Positions 20,802 through 35,372 of a stretch of 35,372 nucleotides of DNA are shown piece after piece; the stretch's first letter is position 1; every line of letters starts with the position of its first letter. This stretch comes from Methanosaeta sp. PtaU1.Bin112. Lineage in GTDB: Archaea; Halobacteriota; Methanosarcinia; Methanotrichales; Methanotrichaceae. The stretch spans positions 1 to 35,372 of the forward strand of contig MVRL01000165.1 of NCBI GenBank assembly GCA_002067705.1, in the 5' to 3' direction. Made by a program: the position numbers and the translations under genes. The notes beneath the pieces are model-generated. The model saw only the letters and a program-made list of their open reading frames with translations. It did no database searches and was not told the origin of the DNA.

Positions 20802-23156
20802 ATGACGAGAGGTAATGATCTGGCGCTGGGAATGAAGGTGCTAATAGTAGACGATGAGATCGATATGCCCACCGCAGAAGGTAGGGCTGTGCGCGCCCTG
20901 GTGGATGAGATTAAAAAGGAAGCTGCCACGGTGATAAAATCATGCTCTGCAGACGATGGCAGGTCGGTAATTCTCTCCGATCCCTCAATCCAATGCATTC
21001 TCATGGATTGGAGTCTTTCCGACGATGATCCCACCCATGACAAAGCCAGAGAGCTCCTCAAGCTGATACGCACCAGAAATAGCCTCATGCCTGTCTTTCT
21101 CATGTCCGACAGCGAAAAGGCGCCGCTGATCAATGCCGAGGTTATGAGCCTGGTGGACGAGTTGGTCTGGGTCTTGGAAGACACCCCCACGTTCATTGCC
21201 GGGCGAGCACTGGCGGCCATGAATCGATATCGTGAGCAGATCGAGCCGCCCTTTACCAAAGCCCTCATGGACTTTGCAAAGGTCTCCGAATACTCCTGGC
21301 ATACCCCAGGCCATGCGGGCGGAACGGCTTTCCTCAAGTCGCCCGTAGGCAGAGCCTTCTTCCAGTATTTTGGCGAAAACCTTCTTCGGTCCGATCTCTC
21401 CATATCTGTGGGAGAGCTTGGCTCTCTCTTGGACCACTCCGGCCCGATCGGCGAGAGTGAAAAATATGCTGCCCAGATCTTTGGAGCGGATCGATCTTAC
21501 ACCGTAACCAACGGCACCTCTGCCTCAAACCGCATTGTTTTCATGGCAAGCGTCACCCGCGGCGATCACGTTCTGGTTGACAGAAACTGCCACAAATCCA
21601 TTGAGCAGGCATTGATTATGACCGGTGCGATTCCTGCCTATATGAAGACCTCACGAAATTACCTGGGATTGATTGGCCCCATCTATCCTGAGAACATCGG
21701 CAAAGAAGCAGTCTTGCAATCTATTCTCGCCCATAACCTGTCTGTTTCACCCGAAAACGATGAAAAAGAGGACCATTCTGATGCTCTTGATACTGCAAGT
21801 GCGAAGCACAAGCGGCCTGCACATGCCATTATCACCAACTCCACCTATGACGGCCTCTGCTACAATGTAAAGCGAGTCCTGGAGATATTGGGCGATAGCG
21901 TCGATCGCATCCATTTTGATGAGGCATGGTACGGCTATGCCAGATTCAACCCGCTCTATAAAGAACGATACGGCATGTTTGAGAAGAGCAGACATGATGA
22001 TGGCCCCACGGTATTTACTACTACCTCGACCCATAAGCTGCTCGCTGCCCTCTCCCAGGCATCCTTCATTCATGTCCGCGACGGCAAAAAGGCCATCCCT
22101 CACGACCGGTTCAACGAATCGTTTATGATGCATTCCTCTACATCGCCCCAATACGCCATTATTGCCTCAAATGAGGTCTCTGCAGCCATGATGTCCGGAG
22201 AGAGCGGACCGGCTCTGACCAGAGAATCGATAGATGAAGCCATTGCATTCCGCCAGAGCATGCGCAAGATATGTAAGGAGGCTCAGGAGAATGGAGAGTG
22301 GTTCTTCGACGTCTGGAATGCTGACAAGATCAAAGGGGTGGACTTCGAGAGAGTATCGCCCAAAACGCTGGCCGAGGATCCTGATTGCTGGGTGCTGCAT
22401 ACCAAAGACAGGTGGCATGGCTTTTCCAATATGGAGGAGGGCTACTGTATGCTCGACCCCATCAAGGTCTCTGTGGTAACACCTGGGGTTGAGAGGGACG
22501 AAACTCTCAGGAAGGATGGAGAGGTCAGGATACCGGCGATGCTGGTCACATCTTACCTGGACAACCGGGGCATAGTGGTGGAAAAGACGACGGACTTTAC
22601 AATTCTCTTCCTCTTCTCGATGGGAATCACCAAAGGCAAATGGGGAACTCTGGTCAATGCTCTATTGAGGTTTAGAGATGACTATAACAAGAACACTCTG
22701 CTAAAAGAAGTTCTGCCAGACAAGGTGCTGCTGGACCCGGACCACTATCAGAATATGGGACTGATGGATCTGGCAGAGGAGATGTTCATTAAGTTAAAGG
22801 AACTGAAGCTGATGGACCTTCAGAAGGAAATTTATGCATCAAAATTGCCCAGGCAGGACAAAACGCCAAACCAGGCTTATCAGAAGTTTGTGCACGGCCG
22901 CGCCGAGCTTCTGCCATTGAGGGAGACCGCCAATCGAACCGTAGCTACGGGAATAATCCCCTATCCTCCGGGCATTCCCATGCTGCTCTCGGGAGAGAAT
23001 ATCGGACAGGCCAGCGGCCCCCATCTCAAGTACCTCTGCGCTCTGCAGAAATGGGATATGCATTTCTGGGGCTTTGGCCATGATATTCACGGAGTGGAAA
23101 TTAAAGATGGGAAGTACTATATCCATTGCCTTAAGGAAATTGTCATGGATGTGTAG
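20802..23156 (+). CDS. Orn/Lys/Arg decarboxylase-family PLP enzyme with receiver-like domain
   Basis: This 784-residue protein has the layout of bacterial inducible Lys/Arg/Orn decarboxylases. An N-terminal CheY-like wing domain (about 12-145) is followed by the PLP aspartate-aminotransferase-fold core, with SEYSWHTPGHAGG (162-174), DRNCHKSIEQ (260-269), NSTYDG, Asp373 in HFDEAWYGYA, and Schiff-base Lys412 in TSTHKLLAALSQAS, and then the C-terminal domain ending in YPPGIPMLLSGE. The wing domain keeps a receiver-like acidic pocket (VDDE at 16-19, Asp69 in ILMDWS) and Lys106. The amino acid decarboxylated cannot be assigned; arginine for polyamine synthesis is plausible. A GTGAT motif lies 7 nt before the ATG. 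Residue 11 is an alternative start. A paralogue follows 1.1 kb downstream. Confidence 0.88.
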   Translation: MTRGNDLALGMKVLIVDDEIDMPTAEGRAVRALVDEIKKEAATVIKSCSADDGRSVILSDPSIQCILMDWSLSDDDPTHDKARELLKLIRTRNSLMPVFLMSDSEKAPLINAEVMSLVDELVWVLEDTPTFIAGRALAAMNRYREQIEPPFTKALMDFAKVSEYSWHTPGHAGGTAFLKSPVGRAFFQYFGENLLRSDLSISVGELGSLLDHSGPIGESEKYAAQIFGADRSYTVTNGTSASNRIVFMASVTRGDHVLVDRNCHKSIEQALIMTGAIPAYMKTSRNYLGLIGPIYPENIGKEAVLQSILAHNLSVSPENDEKEDHSDALDTASAKHKRPAHAIITNSTYDGLCYNVKRVLEILGDSVDRIHFDEAWYGYARFNPLYKERYGMFEKSRHDDGPTVFTTTSTHKLLAALSQASFIHVRDGKKAIPHDRFNESFMMHSSTSPQYAIIASNEVSAAMMSGESGPALTRESIDEAIAFRQSMRKICKEAQENGEWFFDVWNADKIKGVDFERVSPKTLAEDPDCWVLHTKDRWHGFSNMEEGYCMLDPIKVSVVTPGVERDETLRKDGEVRIPAMLVTSYLDNRGIVVEKTTDFTILFLFSMGITKGKWGTLVNALLRFRDDYNKNTLLKEVLPDKVLLDPDHYQNMGLMDLAEEMFIKLKELKLMDLQKEIYASKLPRQDKTPNQAYQKFVHGRAELLPLRETANRTVATGIIPYPPGIPMLLSGENIGQASGPHLKYLCALQKWDMHFWGFGHDIHGVEIKDGKYYIHCLKEIVMDV

Positions 23157-24236: not shown

Positions 24237-26762
24237 ATGCCGCATAAGCTCTCTATATTGATCATCTCCGCTAAGAAGGAGGATGGAAAATCGGCCACAA
24301 TTCTGGCCATGAGCCGACTTGAGGAAGCAATAAAGAGCCTTGGTTACCCGACCGTCCTGGCGAACACGGCAAGCGACGGAAAAGGCCTGGTCAGCTCCTA
24401 TCACGGGTTTGGGTGCATCATACTGGATGCGGATATTCCGAGCGAAGAAGAGCTGAGACGGCGGGCAGAGCTGCAGGCAGCACTGAGAGCCGGGCAGGCC
24501 AACGCCGCCGATGCCGTGAGAGCCGTAAACGCAGTGGACATCATCCAGGCCATCCGGTCGATGGACAAAAAGGTTCCCATATTCCTGACGGCAGACAGGA
24601 CAGAGCTCAGGGATATTCCTCTGGAGATAATAAGCGAGGTCCATGAGTACATTTATCCTCTCCAGGACACTGCGGACTTCATAGCCGGAAGGGTGGACTT
24701 TGCCACGAGGCGCTATTACGAACAGCTGCTTCCCCCATACTTCGGGGAGCTGAAGAAGTTCACTGAAGACGCCGCATACAGCTGGGATGCGCCCGGCCAT
24801 ATGGGAGGGGTGGCCTATCTCAAGCATCCGGTGGGCATGCAGTTTCATCAATTCTTCGGCGAGAACATTATGCGGGCTGACATAGGGATCTCCACCGCCC
24901 AGATGGGGGACTGGCTGGAGCACATCGGCCCATCGAATGAGTCGGAGTGCAATGCCGCCCGCATCTTTGGAGCCGACTGGACCTTTTATGTTCTGGGAGG
25001 GTCATCGGCCTCAAACCGGATAGTCTGCCAGGGAGCGATAGGCGCTGAGGAGATGGTTGTGGCGGACAGAAACTGCCACAAGTCGCTCAACCACGGCCTG
25101 ACCCTCAGCCGGGCGAGAGCGGTTTACCTCAAGCCGACCCGCAACAGCTACGGGATGATAGGCCCGATTCAGAGGAAATGCTTTGAGCCGCAGCATATTA
25201 AGGAGCTGATCGACAAGAGCGAACTCAAGAAAGGAGCCGTTTCGCCCGATCCAACATACGGAGTGGTTACCAACTGCACCTATGACGGTTTCTGCTATGA
25301 TGTCAATTCTGTGGTGGACCTGCTCTCCATGAGCGTGGACCGGATTCATTTCGATGAGGCCTGGTATGCTTATGCGAAGTTTCATCCAGTCTATGCTGGC
25401 CGGTTTGCCATGGGATTGGACCGGGAGCTGGACAGGACCACCATCTTTGCAGTGCAGTCGACTCACAAGATGCTGCCTGCCTTTTCGATGGCCTCCATGA
25501 TTCACATCAAAGTCAACAAGGTAAAGCCGAATCTGGAAAAGGACCAGTTTAATGAGGCATTCATGATGCACGGCACCACATCGCCTTTCTATCCCATGAT
25601 TGCCTCTATTGATGTGGCAACCTCCATGATGGATGACCCTGCCGGTCGCACCATGATGGACGAGACTATTGAAGATGCCATCGGCCTGCGAAAAGCGATC
25701 GCCTCTGTTGGCAAGCGCATCAGGGAGAGCGATGAGAAAAATAAATGGTTCTTCGGCTGCTACCAGCCCGACAAAGTTGTCGATCCGAAGAAGCCCAATG
25801 AGCCCATCGATTTCGAGGATGCGCCTGACAGCCTGCTGGCCAATGAGCCGTCTTGCTGGACCCTCAAGGAGAGCGACACCTGGCACGGCTTCCAGAGGGA
25901 GGACCTGTCCGGGGATAACTACTGCATGCTGGATCCAACGAAGGTTACCATCCTCTGTCCGGGCATAAATGCCAGGGGAGAGATGGATGGCCACTTTGGC
26001 ATTCCTGGGACTATTCTGACCCACTTCCTGGACTCTCGCAGAATTGAGATCGCCCGGACAGGAGACTACACAGTGCTGGTGCTCTTCTCGGTGGGAACGA
26101 GCAAAGGCAAGTGGGGAACCCTTCTGGAGGCGCTGCTCGAGTTCAAGCGCCTTTACGACAGCGGTGCCAGCGTGGCTGAGGTTCTTCCGGAGCTAGCCGA
26201 GAAATACCCGGAGGAGTACGGCAGAGACGCCAATGGCCAACCGAAGATCTCCCTGAAAGAGCTCTGCCAGAATATGCACTCCTGGATGAAAGAGAATAAT
26301 CTGCCCAAGCATCTCAACGATGCCTGCAATGTCATTCCCCCCGCCAGGTACTCATCTGCAGAGACCTACCAGAAGCTGATCCGGGACCAGACTGAGAGGG
26401 TCAGGATCTCTGAAATTGCCAGGCAGAAAGATCGGATTGCCGGGCATATGCTCGTGCCCTATCCACCGGGAATACCAATCCTGATGCCGGGAGAGGTCCT
26501 GGAAAAAGGCAATCCTCAGATAAAATTCCTGCTGAAGCTGGAGAAGTTCAATGGCAAGTTCCCGGGTTTCGAGAGAGAGATTCACGGCGTAGAGATCGAC
26601 GAGAATGGCAACTTCTGCATGCGAGTGGTCAAGAGTGACCTGGGCGAGAAGGAAGAAGAGACTGAGGAGATGAGGCTCAAGCAAGGAGAAGCCGCTCCGG
26701 CCTTCAAGCCGGCGATCAGGCGGCGCGTCATGTCCAGGGCAGTGAAGAGAGGTCGATCGTAA
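24237..26762 (+). CDS. Second Orn/Lys/Arg decarboxylase-family PLP enzyme
   Basis: This 841-residue paralogue of the enzyme encoded at 20802 has the same domain order. Core landmarks are YSWDAPGHMGG (181-191), DRNCHKSLNHG (277-287), NCTYDGFCYD, Asp373 in HFDEAWYAYA and Schiff-base Lys411 in QSTHKMLPAFSMAS. It differs from the first copy in the wing domain. The receiver acidic pair is lost (IISAKKED), Asp64 remains (IILDAD), and a 30-residue Ala/Arg-rich helix is inserted (about 70-98). It also has an extra basic and acidic C-terminal tail of about 40 residues (GEKEEETEEM, then RRRVMSRAVKRGRS). Arginine or lysine decarboxylation is inferred only from the family. AAGGTGAAGGA precedes the ATG. 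Confidence 0.88.
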   Translation: MPHKLSILIISAKKEDGKSATILAMSRLEEAIKSLGYPTVLANTASDGKGLVSSYHGFGCIILDADIPSEEELRRRAELQAALRAGQANAADAVRAVNAVDIIQAIRSMDKKVPIFLTADRTELRDIPLEIISEVHEYIYPLQDTADFIAGRVDFATRRYYEQLLPPYFGELKKFTEDAAYSWDAPGHMGGVAYLKHPVGMQFHQFFGENIMRADIGISTAQMGDWLEHIGPSNESECNAARIFGADWTFYVLGGSSASNRIVCQGAIGAEEMVVADRNCHKSLNHGLTLSRARAVYLKPTRNSYGMIGPIQRKCFEPQHIKELIDKSELKKGAVSPDPTYGVVTNCTYDGFCYDVNSVVDLLSMSVDRIHFDEAWYAYAKFHPVYAGRFAMGLDRELDRTTIFAVQSTHKMLPAFSMASMIHIKVNKVKPNLEKDQFNEAFMMHGTTSPFYPMIASIDVATSMMDDPAGRTMMDETIEDAIGLRKAIASVGKRIRESDEKNKWFFGCYQPDKVVDPKKPNEPIDFEDAPDSLLANEPSCWTLKESDTWHGFQREDLSGDNYCMLDPTKVTILCPGINARGEMDGHFGIPGTILTHFLDSRRIEIARTGDYTVLVLFSVGTSKGKWGTLLEALLEFKRLYDSGASVAEVLPELAEKYPEEYGRDANGQPKISLKELCQNMHSWMKENNLPKHLNDACNVIPPARYSSAETYQKLIRDQTERVRISEIARQKDRIAGHMLVPYPPGIPILMPGEVLEKGNPQIKFLLKLEKFNGKFPGFEREIHGVEIDENGNFCMRVVKSDLGEKEEETEEMRLKQGEAAPAFKPAIRRRVMSRAVKRGRS

Positions 26763-26768
26763 GGAAGG

Positions 26769-26836
26769 TGTGCTGGCAGCGGGCTGCCGGAGCGACCTGC
26801 TCAAAGCCGATGCCACCGGCAGCACATCTTTTTTTG
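26769..26836 (+). terminator. Strong hairpin plus T-run after the second decarboxylase
   Basis: TGTGCTG (26769-26775) pairs with CAGCACA (26820-26826), followed at once by TCTTTTTTT. Inside is a second perfect stem, GGCAGC/GCTGCC. It lies 7 bp past the stop codon. Beyond it, 26840-27015 shows no gene. Confidence 0.65.
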
Positions 26837-27015
26837 CAGTAGGATAATGGCTCAGGCTCTTTTCCGTCCCGGCACTTCTTCAATGCAGATGGATAGGTTA
26901 TCCCGGCCAGCTACAATTCGTACATATCTCAGGAAGCGCAAATGATATAAATATTGAGTCAGGATAGCAGCTTGCTTGATTTGGTAAACAGGCCCCCGAT
27001 TTATCGGATACATTC

Positions 27016-27223
27016 GAGCCAGACGGATGAATAGCAGGACGGAGAACGTCCTATTTCACGAGCCTGGGTGGCATCCAGTTTCCTGGGAGGCTCGTGAAAT
27101 ATCAATGCATATCGAAAATGCCCTTGACAGGCAGTCTACACTCTAAACATTTTAGTAAGAGTCAAGGCGGCTCGTGAAAATCGCATTTTTTTCGATATCT
27201 GTAAAAGCCGAAAAATCGCCGCC
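27016..27223 (+). promoter_or_regulatory. CRISPR leader 1 (mini-array)
   Basis: These 208 bp are homologous to the leader of the large array at 31651-31861. The order is GCCAGACGGA; a hairpin AGGACG-gagaa-CGTCCT (27036-27052); motif copy A, a perfect 14-bp inverted repeat with copy B (27052-27065 with 27088-27101, core TTTCACGAGCCT / AGGCTCGTGAAA); GCATATCGAAAATGC; and copy C, GGCTCGTGAAA (27169-27179), 80 bp after B. The final 44 bp match leader 2 at about 36 positions and contain TTTTTTTCGATATC. Leaders hold the array promoter and direct Cas1-Cas2 integration at the first repeat. Confidence 0.8.
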
Positions 27224-27332
27224 GTCTCCATGACTGAAAAGTCGTGGCTCAATTGAAACTTCAAACATTTCCTTCTCGGGGGCTACTATGATCACCGTCT
27301 CCATGACTGAAAAGTCGTGGCCCAATTGAAAC
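27224..27332 (+). CRISPR. CRISPR mini-array: two repeats, one spacer
   Basis: A 36-bp repeat (27224-27259) and a second copy (27297-27332) flank one 37-bp spacer (27260-27296). The first copy is identical to the main-array repeat. The second has one T-to-C change (GTGGCCCAATTG), as often found in a leader-distal terminal repeat. The orientation is the same as in the main array, with the leader on the left. A 14-bp palindrome, TGCCCGGCCGGGCA (27338-27351), follows immediately. A forward frame over 27337-27552 is not supported as a gene. Confidence 0.9.
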
Positions 27333-27474
27333 CGTCATGCCCGGCCGGGCACCCATGAGGCATGAAAATGTGTCATGGCTTGATGGCATGCCGGAAACAT
27401 TAATCGCATGCAGGAACGGTTGCACCGATATGCGTGAGGCCCATTTTCATATCAAACTCATTGGAGTAACAAAT

Positions 27475-29256
27475 CTATTCACAAGCTATTTTAAAAAAAT
27501 GCCGAATCATGGAAACCAAACCGGAAAGCATGCCGCCATCCTTATCAAATGACCAATCCTTTCCAACCTTCACATCGGTCAGGCAGGGAATCACCTTCAA
27601 TATCTCATTTCCCGCTTCCTCCATCACGCTGCTCAGCAGCCGAGAAGCTTCTTTTTTCCGCTTATCCGGAACCTCCAGGAGAATGCTGTCATGAACCGCA
27701 TTAATTAGCCGGAAATCGCTGTACTGGGGCGACGCAATCTTTTCGTAGAGCCTTCCCAGAGCAATCTTTTGCAGATCTGCACCCGTCGCCTGCACAGGAG
27801 TGTTGATCATGGCATTTCTATGCCTGGGATCAACATGCCTAATTCGACCCAATGCCGATCTGGAAATTTTGTATGCCTGCCCATCGACTTCCACTTCCCT
27901 GGCGCCGTCTGTGACCATGCGCTGCCAGCGCTGCAAATCCGGATAGGCATCATAAAAACGGTGCAGGAATTCCCTAGCCTGTTCTTCGCTCAGGCTGGGC
28001 AGATTGCTGAGAATCATATTTGCTCCCCCGCCGTAAATCGTGCCGTAATTCAGGGTCTTGGCAATCTGCCTCTCTTCATCCGAGACCTTTTTCTTTTGAA
28101 AGATGACCTGGGCTGTCTGGCGGTGAGGATCAAGACCATTCTTGAAGATCCTTTGCATGGCTTTATCGCCGGAGAGAACAGCGATGATCCTCATCTCAAT
28201 GGCCGAGAAGTCAGCCTCCACAAAGACCATTCCCTTTGAGGCGACAAAGAGCTTTTTGAGTAGCGGGTCTCTTGGAACCTGCTGAATATTGGGCCGGGAA
28301 CAGGTGATGCGGCCGCTTCTGCCGCCAAGCTGCGTCAGCCTGGGATAGATGCGATTCTCTCTGGCACAGTCTATCCAATTTTTCAGAAAACCGATCTTCT
28401 GCCTCAGCTCTCTGTACCTCAGAATCGATTTTACGAAAAGCTCTTTGGGATGCTCGGATAGTATTCTTTCCAGATCAGCAGCCGATGTGCTCTTCAGACC
28501 GTACCCACGGCTCTGCAGCAGCCTTTTCACGTGAACAGGATTGCGGGGATTGAATCCTCTGAATTTCGCCCCCTTTGCATGCTGCTCAAGCTCTCTTTCC
28601 AGCCGGTCTTTCTCATCTATCAGGCTCTCTAAAAGCCGCCTGCCTCTCTCACCGTCAAAGCCTATGCCGCTATATTCAATCTCCACTAATGCAGGCAGCG
28701 CTTGAAACTCAATTCGGGCTATGTCTTCCATGCGGTTCATCCTGATAAGAGACATCTGTTTGGCCTGAATACTCTCCAGGACTGCGCAGACTCTGGAGGC
28801 ATAATCCATCTCTCTGGCCGAGGGATTGCTGCTTTTGCCTGAAGCTCTGCCCGATGCCTCAGGGCTGTCGCCAAAATGCCACCCCAACAGGTCCCTGCAA
28901 ATCGATTGCAGAGACGATTCCTTGCTGCAAAGGCCATTGTCGAGAAGCTGTGAGGCCAGCCGGGTATCCCAGAGATTTGTGAGCTGAAGTCTCCTGCCGA
29001 TCTCATTTCTGATAATTCCGAGATCGAAAAGCAGATCGTGGCCCACAACCCGACAGGATGGGCACTCCAGAAGAGGGACGATCTCTGGGAGCAAATTGGG
29101 AGCCAGCAGAGCCTGGCCGTAGTCACCGGCAATGGAGATAAACCTGAGATGAGATGCACAGGGCATAAAACCACCGTCAGTTCTCAAATGCAGAAAGATG
29201 GTGGAGGGCTCATTTCTCGGCTCGCAGGACCAGGAAGAGAGAAGCGCTTTGACCAC
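27475..29256 (-). CDS. CRISPR-linked family A DNA polymerase with dead exonuclease domain
   Basis: This 593-residue protein has the Klenow layout: an exonuclease-like domain (about 15-165), then thumb, palm and fingers. The polymerase motifs are intact: motif A Asp349 in VEADFSAIEMR, motif B Arg396-Lys400-Tyr404 in ERQIAKTLNYGTIYGG, and motif C Asp523 in NAVHDSILLEV, although Ser524 replaces the usual Glu. In the exonuclease domain motif I is lost (LHLRTDGG in place of a D-x-E), motif III lacks Asp (YASRV), and only Asp78 of motif II remains, so proofreading should be absent. There is no 5' nuclease domain. The start is GTG with GAGGAGGT 9 nt upstream. Family A polymerases are uncommon in archaea. 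The divergent arrangement with cas4-cas1 suggests gap filling or end processing during spacer acquisition. Confidence 0.88.
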   Translation of the reverse strand: MVKALLSSWSCEPRNEPSTIFLHLRTDGGFMPCASHLRFISIAGDYGQALLAPNLLPEIVPLLECPSCRVVGHDLLFDLGIIRNEIGRRLQLTNLWDTRLASQLLDNGLCSKESSLQSICRDLLGWHFGDSPEASGRASGKSSNPSAREMDYASRVCAVLESIQAKQMSLIRMNRMEDIARIEFQALPALVEIEYSGIGFDGERGRRLLESLIDEKDRLERELEQHAKGAKFRGFNPRNPVHVKRLLQSRGYGLKSTSAADLERILSEHPKELFVKSILRYRELRQKIGFLKNWIDCARENRIYPRLTQLGGRSGRITCSRPNIQQVPRDPLLKKLFVASKGMVFVEADFSAIEMRIIAVLSGDKAMQRIFKNGLDPHRQTAQVIFQKKKVSDEERQIAKTLNYGTIYGGGANMILSNLPSLSEEQAREFLHRFYDAYPDLQRWQRMVTDGAREVEVDGQAYKISRSALGRIRHVDPRHRNAMINTPVQATGADLQKIALGRLYEKIASPQYSDFRLINAVHDSILLEVPDKRKKEASRLLSSVMEEAGNEILKVIPCLTDVKVGKDWSFDKDGGMLSGLVSMIRHFFKIACE

Positions 29257-29337
29257 TTTTGCAATACCTCCTCAAACAGATCGTATCTCTGAAAACCTAT
29301 ATATCTTTTTGAGGACAAGAGCGAATCGGGGTTTTCG
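29257..29337. promoter_or_regulatory. Shared divergent promoter, polymerase / cas4-cas1
   Basis: Only 81 bp separate the two start codons. TATATAT at 29298-29304 is the best TATA box for the plus-strand cas4-cas1 gene, about 35 bp before its ATG, which would give a short leader or leaderless mRNA. Being nearly symmetrical, it may also serve the polymerase. GAGGAGGT on the minus strand (29266-29273) is the polymerase ribosome binding site. Confidence 0.55.
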
Positions 29338-31134
29338 GTGATGGAGAATTCTGGATCAAAGGCAGATGTACCGGACCTAATCCCGGCTCGCATGCTCAGC
29401 GAATTCGCATACTGCCCGCGGCTCTGCTACATTGAGTGGATAGATGGGGAGTTTTCAGACAATGAGGATACTGTGGAGGGCAGATTTGCGCATCGCCGGG
29501 TGGACGCAAAGGAAGATGACATTGCCAGAGACGGAATCGAGAACGAGAATGAAAAGGAGAACGAAAAAGAGAATGGAAAAGAGACGGAAACGGGGAGAGA
29601 AGCTTTTCACGCCCGAAGCCTGTTTCTCAGCGGCCCGAAGGCTGGCATCACCTGCCGGATAGATCTCCTGGAAGGGGATGGCGAGAGGGTAACGCCCATA
29701 GAATACAAGAGGGGAAAAGCGCCCGGCATTCCCGAGGGTGCATACGAGCCGGACCGCGTCCAGCTCTGCGCCCAGGGGCTGGTGCTCAGGGAGAACGGCT
29801 TCAGATGCGATGGCGGAATCGTTTACTTTGTCCGCTCGAAGAAACGGGTTGCGGTTGACTTTGATAAAGCTCTGATTCGCAGGACCAACGATCTTATCGC
29901 CGATCTGAGGACGGCAGCAGAAAAGCGGGAGATTCCCCAGCCATTGCAGGATAGCCCCAAGTGCAATCGATGCTCGTTAGCGGGCATCTGCCTTCCCGAT
30001 GAGGTAAATCTGCTCAGAGAGACAGATTCAAATGAAGCTGCTGAGAGAGGATTTCTGGCAAGGATCAGAAAGCTCATCCCGTCTAGGGACGACACCATGC
30101 CGGTATACGTCCTGGGGCACGGAAATACGGTTCGCAAAAAGGGCGATCTACTGGAAATATGGTCCCGCGGTGATGATGATGAGAAGACAGGCAAGGAAGG
30201 CAAATCAAAGCAGGTCAGGCTGAGAGAGATCTCCCAGGTCAATCTCTTTGGAGGAGTTGATGTCTCTATGCCTGCTCTGGTCGAGCTTATGCAGCGAGGC
30301 ATTCCGGTCCTGCATTTTACAAGAGGAGGATGGTTTCAGGGATTGAGCTGCGGGCATACCCACAAGAATGTGCAGCTGCGCATGCGGCAGTTCTCCTGGG
30401 CCGAGGATAAAAAGAAATCCCTATCCATTGCCCGATCTGTAATCTACGGCAAGATCAGAAACTGCCGGACTCAGGTTCGCAGGAATGACGATAAAACCGA
30501 AGAAAAAGCCGACGGCAAATCCGCTAAAGATGCTTTGGACAGGCTGGAGCGGCTTTCCAGGGATGCAAGAAATGCGTCCAGCATCGAAAAGCTACTGGGA
30601 ATTGAAGGTGCAGCCGCGGAGGTTTACTTTGGCCGTCTGGGCCAGATGCTAAAAGCCGATCAGGGTTTCTCCTTTGAAAACAGGAACCGAAGGCCGCCCA
30701 AAGACCCGGTTAACGCAGTTCTCTCTTACCTTTACGCGGTTCTTGCCAAAGACGTTTTCGTCTCTCTTCTCGCGGTGGGATTTGATCCGTATCTCGGTTT
30801 CTACCACCGGCCCCGCTATGGCCGCCCGGCATTGGCGCTGGACATGATGGAGGAGTTCCGGCCCACTATTGCTGATGCCACTGCCATCACTCTATTCAAT
30901 AAAGGCGAGCTATCGGAAAGGGATTTCATCAATACCGGAATAGGAGTATCTCTTACATCCAAAGGAAAGAAAACGGTCATAGCAGGCTACGAAAGACGAA
31001 TGGAATCGGAGATCACTCATCCGCTATTTGGCTATTCTGTCAGCTACCGGAGGATACTGGAAGTGCAGGCGCGGCTATTGTCCAGAGTCATTTCCGGCGA
31101 GATCAAGGAATACCCCGCATTTTACAGGAAGTGA
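29338..31134 (+). CDS. cas4-cas1: Cas4-Cas1 fusion protein
   Basis: This 598-residue protein is two adaptation enzymes in one chain. Cas4 (about 12-225) is a RecB-like PAM-selecting nuclease: Cys26 in FAYCPRLCYIEW, His52 in GRFAHRRVD, Asp109 in CRIDLLEG, Glu122-x-Lys124 in IEYKRG, and the Fe-S cysteines Cys209, Cys212 and Cys218. Cas1 (about 253-598) is the integrase: Glu423 in GIEGAAAEVYF, His490 in LGFYHRPRYGRP, and Asp502 with Glu505 in LDMMEEFRP. An acidic Glu/Asn-rich insertion (about 57-89) lies in the Cas4 part. Such fusions are typical of type I-G (former I-U) and V-B loci, but the type cannot be fixed without effector genes. cas2 follows 6 nt later. Confidence 0.95.
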   Translation: MMENSGSKADVPDLIPARMLSEFAYCPRLCYIEWIDGEFSDNEDTVEGRFAHRRVDAKEDDIARDGIENENEKENEKENGKETETGREAFHARSLFLSGPKAGITCRIDLLEGDGERVTPIEYKRGKAPGIPEGAYEPDRVQLCAQGLVLRENGFRCDGGIVYFVRSKKRVAVDFDKALIRRTNDLIADLRTAAEKREIPQPLQDSPKCNRCSLAGICLPDEVNLLRETDSNEAAERGFLARIRKLIPSRDDTMPVYVLGHGNTVRKKGDLLEIWSRGDDDEKTGKEGKSKQVRLREISQVNLFGGVDVSMPALVELMQRGIPVLHFTRGGWFQGLSCGHTHKNVQLRMRQFSWAEDKKKSLSIARSVIYGKIRNCRTQVRRNDDKTEEKADGKSAKDALDRLERLSRDARNASSIEKLLGIEGAAAEVYFGRLGQMLKADQGFSFENRNRRPPKDPVNAVLSYLYAVLAKDVFVSLLAVGFDPYLGFYHRPRYGRPALALDMMEEFRPTIADATAITLFNKGELSERDFINTGIGVSLTSKGKKTVIAGYERRMESEITHPLFGYSVSYRRILEVQARLLSRVISGEIKEYPAFYRK

Positions 31135-31140
31135 TTCAAT

Positions 31141-31443
31141 TTGAGCGGAAGGAACTGCTATGTTGTAAGCTACGACATCATGGACCAGAGACGATTGCAG
31201 AAAGTGCACAAGATCATGAAAGGCTTCGGAGAGGCTATCCACTATTCGGTTTTCCGATGCGATCTTACCGGCAAAGGTCGAGTGGAGATGATAGCAGCAC
31301 TTACAGATCTTATCAAGCACGACCAAGACAGGATCATGATATTGGATCTTGGACCTACGGACGGCAAAGTGGATCAGAGGATAGAATTTCTCGGCGTCCA
31401 TGCCAAAGATCCGGACTCCCCCCGAAGGGCAGTCATCATTTAA
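31141..31443 (+). CDS. cas2: Cas2, CRISPR adaptation subunit
   Basis: This 100-residue Cas2 dimer would bridge two Cas1 dimers in the integration complex. The start is TTG at 31141, with GGAAGTGATT overlapping the end of cas4-cas1, so translation is coupled. The first strand ends in YVVSYDI with the conserved Asp12. HKIMKGFGEAIHYSVFRCDL and IMILDLGP follow, in the usual ferredoxin-like order. Length is normal (about 90-110). No interference genes follow. The next 418 bp hold the leader of the large array. Confidence 0.92.
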   Translation: MSGRNCYVVSYDIMDQRRLQKVHKIMKGFGEAIHYSVFRCDLTGKGRVEMIAALTDLIKHDQDRIMILDLGPTDGKVDQRIEFLGVHAKDPDSPRRAVII

Positions 31444-31629
31444 GGACGCAAGGATATTGATGGCGGCTGAAGGCATTCGGCACTTTTTTCGCGTAAACGC
31501 AAAGAAAATCAGAAGATATGATAAAGCTTCGATTCAATAGAAGCCAACGCTTTGAAGACAATAGCGATGGGGAAAGTTTAGATAGTAGTAATGCCATCAT
31601 GTTGTTCGCACAAGATCTGGCGAGCAAAC

Positions 31630-31644
31630 CCCTGCCAAGCAGGG
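31630..31644 (+). terminator. Hairpin between cas2 and the leader
   Basis: CCCTGC-caa-GCAGGG is a perfect 6-bp stem, 187 bp past the cas2 stop and just before the leader homology begins. No T-run follows, so a terminator role is uncertain. The stretch 31444-31629 shows nothing else that I can support. Confidence 0.35.
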
Positions 31645-31650
31645 CCGTTC

Positions 31651-31861
31651 GGGCCAGACGGACGGACTTGATGGGACACAGAATGTCCCAGTTTCGCGCA
31701 TCGAGGTGGTGTCCAATTTCCCAGGAGATGCGCGAAAGGTCTGTGCATATCGAAAATTGCAGATTACAAACATTAACTTTTTGAAAGTATTCTAATAAGT
31801 TAACAACATGCGCGAAAACCGCCTTTTTTTCGATATCAGCGAAGGTCGAAAAATGGCCGCC
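31651..31861 (+). promoter_or_regulatory. CRISPR leader 2 (main array)
   Basis: This 211-bp leader is homologous to leader 1. It has the same order with different motif sequence: hairpin TGGGACA-cagaa-TGTCCCA (31672-31690), copy A TTTCGCGCATC (31692-31702), copy B GATGCGCGAAA (31727-31737, perfect inverted repeat of A), GCATATCGAAAATTGC, and copy C ATGCGCGAAA (31808-31817), 80 bp after B. Copy C ends 44 bp before the first repeat, as in leader 1. The last 44 bp include TTTTTTTCGATATC and TCGAAAAA in inverted relation. Confidence 0.85.
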
Positions 31862-34800
31862 GTCTCCATGACTGAAAAGTCGTGGCTCAATTGAAACCCA
31901 AATTGACCTTAGCATTAGTGTGCCTGGCTACATTGTCTCCATGACTGAAAAGTCGTGGCTCAATTGAAACAGCAGATGCAGCTATTGCATCATTAGGTCC
32001 TACTCTGTCTCCATGACTGAAAAGTCGTGGCTCAATTGAAACCAGAACCCCCATCGGAGGGACAGAGCCATTATCTGGTCTCCATGACTGAAAAGTCGTG
32101 GCTCAATTGAAACTGACATCTTTGTCGCACAATCCATAATGCTATCTGTGTCTCCATGACTGAAAAGTCGTGGCTCAATTGAAACAGCAAGTAATTCATT
32201 CACTTGAGCAACAGGATTCTTTGTCTCCATGACTGAAAAGTCGTGGCTCAATTGAAACCGCACTTTAGATGGAATATCCCATCTTCCCTTTTGATCCGTC
32301 TCCATGACTGAAAAGTCGTGGCTCAATTGAAACCACTCCTAGGCTGTCAACGATAAATTCGATATTTTCAGGTCTCCATGACTGAAAAGTCGTGGCTCAA
32401 TTGAAACTGGAAACGGAAAGCTCTGGAGACCTTCACCAATCCAGTCTCCATGACTGAAAAGTCGTGGCTCAATTGAAACTGTCAGACGGCGATACGTCCA
32501 AATAACCACCACAAGCACAAGTCTCCATGACTGAAAAGTCGTGGCTCAATTGAAACGCTGATCAACACTAATGTTGTGTTACTCATTGTGGTCACGTCTC
32601 CATGACTGAAAAGTCGTGGCTCAATTGAAACATTACCTTAAAATTTTTACTTCAAGTAAATTTCCTGGTCTCCATGACTGAAAAGTCGTGGCTCAATTGA
32701 AACAATTTTTTCGCGCTATTTGCGATGCAAGATTTGCGACGTCTCCATGACTGAAAAGTCGTGGCTCAATTGAAACCTTGATAGGACAATTTTATAAGCC
32801 AATCGTAGCCACAGTCTCCATGACTGAAAAGTCGTGGCTCAATTGAAACGATATTGCTTTTTTTCGCTGCTGCTGAGAATTAGCGGTCTCCATGACTGAA
32901 AAGTCGTGGCTCAATTGAAACTCATCTACATCACCCTTATCTCACCTTTTTCTTATTGTCTCCATGACTGAAAAGTCGTGGCTCAATTGAAACGCGGCTC
33001 AATTAGCTCAATAGTAAGGCACGGCGAAAGGAGGGTGTCTCCATGACTGAAAAGTCGTGGCTCAATTGAAACCGCGTATTTTAGTGGATAAACGACCACA
33101 TTTTTTTGTCTCCATGACTGAAAAGTCGTGGCTCAATTGAAACTTTATCGATACAGATTTCTCATTATAATCGATTCTTGTCTCCATGACTGAAAAGTCG
33201 TGGCTCAATTGAAACTTCTTTTGAATACTCCATTAAATGGCGGGATATTAAGTCTCTATGACTGAAAAGTCGTGGCTCAATTGAAACTTTCTTCCATTTC
33301 CTGCAACCGCAGGGACATTTTTGTCTCCATGACTGAAAAGTCGTGGCTCAATTGAAACTTTTTTAAATGAGCTATTCATTCTATTCCTCCTTGTTGTCTC
33401 CATGACTGAAAAGTCGTGGCTCAATTGAAACGAGGGTGTAGTAATTGTAGTAATCCTCCGTGCCGTAGGTCTCCATGACTGAAAAGTCGTGGCTCAATTG
33501 AAACAACCCTGCGCACTCGCAATCGAAGTACTTGCAGTGCCGTCTCCATGACTGAAAAGTCGTGGCTCAATTGAAACACCGCAAGTTCGCGCAGGCGGTC
33601 AAGCTTGGTCATGCTTGTCTCCATGACTGAAAAGTCGTGGCTCAATTGAAACACGATGACAACACAAATTTCAGCTGCTTCGTATAACGTCTCCATGACT
33701 GAAAAGTCGTGGCTCAATTGAAACTGTACGGGGTGTACGAAATTGACTCAAGATGCAGGGAGTCTCCATGACTGAAAAGTCGTGGCTCAATTGAAACGGT
33801 TCTTGGAAACATTTCTGCTGCGCTCGATTTACCGTCTCCATGACTGAAAAGTCGTGGCTCAATTGAAACTTTCTCTGGATCCTTAACGTCATCGACAACT
33901 CTGTCAATGTCTCCATGACTGAAAAGTCGTGGCTCAATTGAAACCACAAGAGCTTGAGACACTGCATGAGCAGATGCCGACAGTCTCCATGACTGAAAAG
34001 TCGTGGCTCAATTGAAACCTTTCCCTTTACAGCATTTCACCTGAACTGTCGTTCCGTCTCCATGACTGAAAAGTCGTGGCTCAATTGAAACTTTCTTAAT
34101 GGATCGAGGTGGTGATCGGCAAACATTTGTCTCCATGACTGAAAAGTCGTGGCTCAATTGAAACGTATTGAGCAAAACAACCATAACAAAAGCACACAAG
34201 CTGTCTCCATGACTGAAAAGTCGTGGCTCAATTGAAACTATCTACTGGCTAAACCGTCGTATCGATCCATTGTTACCGTCTCCATGACTGAAAAGTCGTG
34301 GCTCAATTGAAACTTTCTAGAATGCTCAATGTCTCGTTCAATGAGCCAAGGTCTCCATGACTGAAAAGTCGTGGCTCAATTGAAACTTTCCGTTAACGCA
34401 TAGCCAGACTGAGTTGAAGTTGTCTCCATGACTGAAAAGTCGTGGCTCAATTGAAACCCTCTGATGTTTGATGCTTAAGCTCCATTGTTAAATAGTCTCC
34501 ATGACTGAAAAGTCGTGGCTCAATTGAAACTCGACGAACCTTGCATCCCGCAATTCCGCAAGCTTACCCGGAGTCTCCATGACTGAAAAGTCGTGGCTCA
34601 ATTGAAACATCTCTCTCACCTTTCCATTTTTTAAACTGTTGTTCTGTCTCCATGACTGAAAAGTCGTGGCTCAATTGAAACGCGGAGAGGATAATGCCAA
34701 ACCTCTCAATCTTGCGAGGTCTCCATGACTGAAAAGTCGTGGCTCAATTGAAACGCAGCCGTCCGGCCCTAAATAGACCTGAGTAATTTCGTCTCCATGA

Positions 34801-35324
34801 CTGAAAAGTCGTGGCTCAATTGAAACCTTTCGGGAAGTTCCACCATGTATCCTTCCTCTGTTTGTCTCCATGACTGAAAAGTCGTGGCTCAATTGAAACA
34901 GGGCCGCGAAGACGTGGGCACCATCTCAGGCACTTGGGTCTCCATGACTGAAAAGTCGTGGCTCAATTGAAACAGGTCGGCAAAGGACAGGTGGCAATGC
35001 CGCCAAGCCGTCTCCATGACTGAAAAGTCGTGGCTCAATTGAAACATTACCCGGTCCAGGCCGTCTAAGAGCTGGCTCATGTCTCCATGACTGAAAAGTC
35101 GTGGCTCAATTGAAACTTGGCGTGCTGACACTGACCCGATATAGCAGGCGCGGTCTCCATGACTGAAAAGTCGTGGCTCAATTGAAACAGGCCATGTATG
35201 CCCGGCGTTTCCGGGCAGCTATCTCGTCTCCATGACTGAAAAGTCGTGGCTCAATTGAAACTGCGAATCCCAAAGCAACTGTTCTTTTTCTTGATGAAGT
35301 CTCCATGACTGAAAAGTCGTGGCT
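31862..35324 (+). CRISPR. Main CRISPR array: 48 repeats, 47 spacers
   Basis: I count 48 copies of a 36-bp repeat beginning GTCTCCATGACTGAAAAG and ending GTGGCTCAATTGAAAC, with 47 spacers of 35-43 bp. All full repeats read as identical except the one at 33252, which has C to T at 33257. The last copy (35299-35324) is cut after 26 bp, marking the leader-distal end. CATGACT-GAAA-AGTCGTG forms a 7-bp hairpin with a GNRA-type loop, and the 3' end ATTGAAAC would be the crRNA handle after Cas6-type cleavage. The leader and cas4-cas1/cas2 are on the left. Minus-strand frames across the array are translations of the repeat and not genes. The last 48 bp of the window show nothing. Confidence 0.98.
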
Positions 35325-35372
35325 TCACATACCAACCAACTATAACCGCCAAGTATCCAAGCCTGCCCCGGC

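Follow-up and report, generated by a model that had tools for sequence, protein, structure and literature searches.

A three-box element in the leaders of CRISPR arrays beside Cas4-Cas1 genes: a candidate docking site found in distant bacteria and archaea

Short motifs in the leaders of CRISPR (clustered regularly interspaced short palindromic repeats) arrays are not a new theme, and Santiago-Frangos et al. 2021 reportedly described upstream leader motifs linked to integration host factor (IHF) in type I-E, I-F, and other systems. IHF serves leader docking in types I-E and I-F (PMC13034035), and inverted repeat motifs of type I-F leaders contact Cas2 (PMC12259127). In the type I-A system of Sulfolobus, a distal motif (−143 to −94) is bound by Csa3a and a proximal one (−25 to +7) by Cas1, which prefers stem-loop DNA (PMC9456107). 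As for systems with Cas4, a processed prespacer given to the Cas4/1 and Cas2 proteins of Methanosarcina barkeri, acting alone on a plasmid with the full leader, had 80-90% of its leader-side events at the correct site (PMC10504553), and a leader-repeat array together with Cas4/1 and Cas2 sufficed for V-B adaptation in Escherichia coli (PMC9419969). How, then, does a type I-G integrase find its site? It is said to do so by "yet unknown factors" (PMC13034035). The subject of this work is an element of three short boxes, A, B, and C, present in both CRISPR leaders of contig MVRL01000165.1 from Methanosaeta sp. PtaU1.Bin112 (assembly GCA_002067705.1); the whole stretch analyzed, 35,372 nucleotides, is called the window. 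The element is genuine, is under selection, and extends far beyond the window: its layout is found in distant bacteria and archaea with related spacer-capture genes, and it points to an unrecognized part of integration-site finding.

Coordinates given below without a locus or contig name are those of the window, and the leader features, the arrays, the cas4-cas1 fusion, and the cas2-like ORF lie on the plus strand. In leader 1, whose first repeat is at 27224, box A (TTTCACGAGCC) occupies 27054..27064, box B (GGCTCGTGAAA, the inverse of A) 27089..27099, and box C, again GGCTCGTGAAA, 27169..27179. In leader 2, with its first repeat at 31862, A (TTTCGCGCATC) is at 31692..31702, B (GATGCGCGAAA) at 31727..31737, and C (CATGCGCGAAA) at 31807..31817. 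A sequence-only reading of this DNA had proposed these boxes, and direct reading together with recomputation confirms them, as well as their spacing: in both leaders 80 bp separate B from C, and 44 bp lie between the end of C and the first repeat. The same reading held that all copies agree within each leader. The A boxes of the two leaders differ at 4/11 positions, and all four differences are mirrored in B and C; the agreement is not complete, as C of leader 2 has 10 of the 11 letters of B. When leader 2 is compared with its close relative L014 (L-numbers are labels of leaders or loci), a single box position differs, and A, B, and C all show the change. By chance, an inverted-plus-direct triple of 10 nt appears in 1/20,000 Markov shuffles of leader 2 and in 0/20,000 of leader 1. 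The hairpin preceding box A, H1, covaries between the leaders as had been noticed: AGGACG/CGTCCT at 27036..27052 in leader 1 (helix 3, with both sides changed in 3/7 pairs) is replaced, through paired differences, by TGGGACA/TGTCCCA at 31672..31690 in leader 2.

How far does this layout extend? Relatives of the Cas4-Cas1 protein (the best 80 of 260) supplied leaders, as did related genomes and 12 of 89 plasmid records (some gave no leader). In a set of 120 leaders, grouped by repeat ending, box C was sought as a TCG core between −49 and −54 and boxes A and B as a CGA...TCG hairpin. The C core is present in 18/21 bacterial I-G leaders (2.27 expected from shuffles), in all eight V-B leaders (0.99 expected), and in 13 of the 15 bacterial I-C leaders (1.01 expected); the figures are 25/47 for archaeal I-G (4.1 expected), a group containing several stray single-repeat matches that are not true leaders, and 3/6 for other leaders (0.6 expected). 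Methanothrix class I, which comprises both leaders of the window and eight others, has a variant core, CG(C/T)GAAA, and the TCG test counts only leader 1 and L059 of this class. The A-B hairpin was found in 16/21 bacterial I-G, 3/8 V-B, 5/15 bacterial I-C, 12/47 archaeal I-G, 3/18 archaeal I-C, and 1/6 other leaders, with shuffles giving at most 0.24 per group, and both parts occur together in 15/21 bacterial I-G leaders (0.01 expected). Leaders of I-D/I-B type have neither the C core (0/5; 0.45 expected) nor the A-B hairpin (0/5). The assignments were checked with NCBIfam: Cas12b is above its cut-off at 8/8 V-B loci, Cas3g or Cas8g at the I-G loci L079, L085, and L099 (below cut-off at L065), and Cas8c is found at L105 and L116 for I-C; the plasmid records among the scored leaders carry I-U/I-G and I-C annotation. 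A separate observation concerns archaeal I-C leaders (L155, L166, L163, L164, and others), where a GCGAACC...GGTTCGC hairpin directly after cas2 is retained and the C box is mostly missing.

The geometry was measured in hand-listed leaders with both sites found, using search windows of 48-55 for C and 32-38 for A-B. A first triple search and a C-blind hairpin search chose AT-rich stems in many leaders, so that fixed windows were used instead; the box windows of the geometry, matching, and class III tests were partly placed by hand. I-G and V-B leaders have C at −49 to −51 and an A-B distance (CGA to TCG) of 36 or 37; for I-C the corresponding values are −51 to −54 and 33 or 34. All 19 bacterial leaders of the I-G list, which includes L090 and L094, not established as I-G, have C at −49 to −51 and an A-B distance of 36 or 37. 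Of the ten Methanothrix class I leaders, nine have 44 between the end of C and the repeat and one has 46, and B and C are 79 or 80 apart in all ten. Methanotrichaceae leaders as a whole have B and C 79-81 apart, and Methanosarcina has 79; the distance is 80-82 for V-B, 87-90 for I-C, and 77-119 for the bacterial leaders of the I-G list, with clusters near 77, 87-88, 98-102, 107-111, and 119. Of the two spacings that related leaders were expected to keep, the C-to-repeat distance is conserved across phyla, but the 80 bp between B and C is a family trait. The B-C spacing possibly changes in helical steps, the values of 16 lineages or loci fitting a 10.5-bp period in a post hoc test (R=0.56, p=0.007; L174 has no site in it).

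The surprising part of the result is the matching of boxes within a leader in type I-G. The boxes of a leader resemble one another more closely than they do those of other leaders in its group. When own boxes were compared with swapped ones, Methanothrix class I (n=9, L034 being left out as a near copy of L016) gave p=5e-5 for A:B, p=0.0007 for A:C, and p<5e-5 for B=C. Bacterial I-G leaders behave alike, with p<5e-5, p=0.00035, and p=0.0001, respectively, in a set of 12 with one Nitrospira leader. This set is a rerun of an earlier one (n=13; A:C p=0.00115), intended to have one leader per lineage, in which were two Nitrospira leaders (L062, L073), L090 (untyped), and L094 (I-D-like); removal of L090 and L094 leaves n=10, with A:C p=0.0008 and B=C p=0.0001. 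An alignment of 15 Methanotrichaceae leaders from classes I and II has 92.6% pairing for A:C and 89.6% for A:B. The A:C covariation score there is 0.545, compared with a shuffled mean of 0.230 and 0.223 for the best slid register, two of five measures (pairs, types) not being above shuffles. In class III, B and C are matched (p=0.00015; n=8, hand-aligned). The selection on copy identity that had been proposed from the two window leaders is upheld by this covariation and by the swap tests of both groups; V-B and I-C showed no A:C matching.

What could such an element be for? The leaders display a common layout, its phasing, a spread with adaptation genes over effector types, and matching within the leader in two groups. 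From the comparison of sequences we would give roughly a 50% probability to the three boxes being a phased element on which the Cas4-Cas1-Cas2 integrase docks. A, B, and C would be three copies of a leader docking box owned by the Cas4-Cas1-Cas2 adaptation module. Box C, about 50 bp ahead of the integration point, would be read jointly with the first repeat; B stands upstream of C, with the inverted A 33-37 bp upstream of B, and a folded leader would present all three to one integration complex. Each box consists of a near-constant core, TCG(C) or, in Methanothrix class I, CG(C/T)GAAA, and a leader-specific part of 3-4 nt that tends to match among the copies. Docking on DNA is favored by the constant distance of C to the integration point in three subtypes, the constant A-B spacing, the possible helical phasing, and the lack of a wobble preference in A:C.

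Docking alone does not explain why the variable part must match, because a single Cas4-Cas1 gene can have leaders with different versions on its two sides, as in the window; at L043, three leaders with two kinds of boxes surround one Cas4-Cas1. The leading idea here is base pairing of A with B or C, the most economical addition and one that would explain the matching. A Cas1 paralogue serving one leader is another possible answer, given that the genome of the window has six Cas1 genes (contigs C165, C128, C180, C13, C151, and C77), two of them within long Cas4-Cas1 open reading frames (ORFs) and four others; weighed against it is that the repeats of leaders 1 and 2 are identical. We take DNA docking to be the base layer and pairing a possible second layer. 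The two options of the sequence-only reading, a dimeric factor on a looped 80-bp segment and a box A that pairs alternatively with B or C, remain candidate explanations.

Several results weigh against the docking element as drawn here. Archaeal I-C leaders have the C core in just 3/18 cases (1.4 expected). At L094 (Abditibacteriales), counted among the "other" leaders, the A, B, and C element stands beside an I-D type Cas3, and the element is thus not restricted to I-G, V-B, and I-C. The helical-period test was devised after the numbers had been seen, periods from 10 to 11.5 all give R 0.51-0.56 and so form a broad peak, and eight Nitrospira values, among them that of L073 (119), were collapsed to one median. 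Matching is not general either: V-B (n=6) and I-C (n=7) have no A:C or B=C matching, the boxes varying little there, and A:B matching is absent from V-B and gave p=0.0097 in one run and 0.064 in another for I-C. Class II alone gave p=0.37 for A:C and p=0.99 for B=C, and its A:C matching (p=0.0045) is significant only with L210, L216, and L217, which have other box versions, added. Finally, the A:B mismatches of a 51-leader set (L053, L174, L057, L088, L103, and L105 excluded for having no site) comprise 32 GU and 16 CA, the opposite-strand wobble (p=0.001 against swapped boxes), which hints at RNA rather than duplex DNA.

The relatives of the window leaders bear on the same point. They had been expected to keep three covarying copies at a fixed spacing, and they do so in part: A:C covaries, but in most class II leaders A matches C (ACCTCTCG) and B is different, no box A was found in class III leaders when looked for, the B-C spacing varies as given above, and the boxes of two Methanothrix leaders, L015 and L032, are mismatched. 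Departures of this kind are part of what the sequence-only reading had named as counting against it. The array of L015 has four repeats, the first two with a common substitution, so that it probably grew after that change; L032 has a single repeat. Array decay was considered as the cause of mismatch and rejected: the arrays of L015 and L032 are small, yet L014 and L018, with single repeats within the available sequence, are largely matched. As an observation in its own right, L014, L018, and L032 each have an intact-looking leader followed by one repeat, with no array in the available sequence.

Could the leader act as RNA instead? We lean against this alternative while keeping it in play: a leader transcript would start past a TATA-like box, form a row of hairpins, and behave as a bistable structured RNA in which A pairs with B or C, a choice that could set termination or readthrough into the array (in Methanothrix) or processing. 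In a Watson-Crick-only helix scan of the 15 leaders, A:C has the top score (9.9) and A:B the second (9.5), and these are mutually exclusive, covarying helices that share A. Helix 5 joins strand E, ATATCGAAAA (27109..27118 in leader 1, 31747..31756 in leader 2), to E' (TTTTCGATAT in leader 1), which carries a run of seven T (T7) invariant in the 15-leader alignment; run and strand together span 27186..27198 and 31824..31836. The E:E' helix is 97.3% paired and is crossed by A:C, an arrangement that, with T7 in E', would suit a switch. Between B and C of leader 2 lies the inverted repeat D (TTAACTT/AAGTTAA, 31773..31803), which is helix 6, 83.8% paired. Taken jointly, six helices have 90.5% of their cells paired and a covariation of 0.229, above the shuffled (0.134) and slid (at most 0.081) controls.

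Other features also speak for a transcript. A TATA-like box was recognized by pattern in 9/15 leaders and by eye only in the remaining 6; that of leader 1 (TATAAAT, 26946..26952) is at −278 from the first repeat, with the first conserved helix 34 nt further on, and that of leader 2 (TTTAGATA, 31577..31584) is at −285. The fold stability of leaders 2 and 1 corresponds to z=−4.0 and z=−3.3, and RNAalifold favors the plus strand (−29.5) over the minus strand (−24.1). The whole-leader folding energy was nevertheless discarded as proof of RNA, because the minus strand of leader 2 is equally stable (z=−4.0). The A:C mismatches of the 51 leaders show no wobble preference (28 GU, 27 CA; 7 and 3 in the 15-leader scan), the A:B counts without fixed windows are 20 and 21, and no weight is placed on a wobble test whose answers change with the windows. 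Likewise, T7 was rejected as a general terminator: it is present in 15/15 aligned Methanotrichaceae leaders, and none was seen by eye in the bacterial leaders inspected (uncounted). A structured RNA would also have no need of a constant C-to-repeat distance or of B-C phasing, if the latter holds.

An RTGRYG motif also speaks for RNA: it occurs in 30/42 leaders between −200 and −120, the region of the A-B loop, where 7.3 are expected. Rfam covariance models gave no match up to E=1 over 26000-32500. An anti-repeat like that of a tracrRNA (trans-activating CRISPR RNA) was set aside, box A having, by eye, no complement in the I-G repeat. At the Cas12b locus L110, the stretch upstream of box A resembles, again by eye, the complement of the repeat end (CCGCC...TTCAGT), as a tracrRNA anti-repeat would.

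Are the boxes, more simply, ordinary copies of one conserved protein site, matched through shared ancestry, base composition, and short-range template switching between inverted copies, selection on identity playing no part? Template switching can correct imperfect palindromes, and nothing beyond the common motif is matched in V-B and I-C, nor in class II by itself. We nonetheless find this explanation unlikely: the one difference between leader 2 and L014 appears in all three boxes, the swap-test result survives thinning in both of the separate groups, and hairpin correction cannot match B and C, direct copies 80 bp apart. L018 and L016 may be intermediate states leaning to matching. Very doubtful is an array-specific pairing code, in which a transcribed A-B stem-loop would be complementary to its own C and leader RNA or an extruded strand would guide Cas4-Cas1-Cas2 to its own array, although such a code, if true, would make leader recognition nucleic-acid guided and array-specific.

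The three-box element stands in the window beside adaptation genes, and the closest relatives found for this DNA are Methanothrix and Methanotrichaceae assemblies. Array 1 (27224..27332, two repeats) is followed by genes for a family A DNA polymerase and a Cas4-Cas1 fusion, then by a cas2-like ORF, leader 2, and the long array 2 (31862..35372), whose repeats run to the contig end. The fusion (29338..31134) is above the NCBIfam cut-off for Cas4g/Cas1g (NF049935, 724.7 bits vs 560), so that the adaptation genes of the window are of type I-G. The ORF immediately after it (31131..31460) is labeled cas2-like from its place and size; Pfam and NCBIfam at 1e-3 gave no match, and the array comes directly downstream. 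No effector genes were found among the window ORFs scanned (at most 12), to which the search for effectors was confined. The polymerase gene (27475..29256, minus strand; PF00476, 5e-65) lies beside the adaptation genes, between array 1 and cas4-cas1, and its product is possibly an adaptation-linked polymerase. Homologues at 56-73% identity flank other Cas4-Cas1 loci of the Methanothrix family (L042/L197, L068/L198, L043/L034, L145, L220), and the flanks of L051 and L150 have family A polymerase homologues at 34-36% identity to the window gene.

Elsewhere in the same genome, the start of contig C189 (L009) has a third leader of the same kind, with another box version (A GCGAGAGGTT, C AACCTCTCG), cut off by the contig end. 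Beside the second module, at C128:1000-2000 (L128), is an ORF with repeated stretches and, by eye, an acylphosphatase-like start. The window itself has two Orn/Lys/Arg decarboxylase-family genes near each other (20802-23156 and 24237-26762), and in a Nitrospira locus a gene of the anti-phage ProA family (L069:112-5403, 2128.8 bits) is found immediately upstream of Cas4-Cas1.

How does the element compare with the leader motifs described so far? It resembles the IHF-linked motifs of types I-E and I-F, short leader motifs at a fixed phase from the repeat that aid Cas1-Cas2 docking, in its constant distance to the first repeat; it differs from them in having three copies, one inverted, with a variable part that is leader-specific and matched within the leader. 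The archaeal hosts concerned here are not known to have IHF. Kieper et al. 2019, to go by the title, is said to deal with conserved type I-D leader motifs that set the acquisition level; two annotated I-D leaders scored here are without the TCG-core element, and a looser triple search gave p=0.033 for L177 and p=0.049 for L184. The available text on type I-F (PMC12259127) describes inverted leader motifs touched by the integrase, as may happen here, but its motif is fixed per subtype and there is no Cas4. Similarly, type I-A of Sulfolobus, in the available text of PMC9456107, offers distal and proximal leader motifs and a Cas1 with a preference for stem-loops, whereas the present boxes are copies of one another, with C near −50.

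Should matching of the variable part prove to be a requirement, a code within the leader would be involved in leader recognition. The available portions of the literature on leaders contained no description of one, and its novelty is provisional, as key leader-motif surveys lay outside that comparison; the C box, at least that of I-C, may already be listed in earlier leader-motif papers. As for type I-G of M. barkeri (PMC10504553), the available text of that study leaves leader boxes unmentioned, but the Cas4/Cas1 is of the same kind, and a Methanosarcina genome with the published repeat (G518) carries all three boxes, C standing at −50; a primer quoted in the paper maps to that leader just past C. 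Type I-G, already reconstituted in vitro with the M. barkeri proteins, now has exact boxes, distances, and natural variants to mutate.

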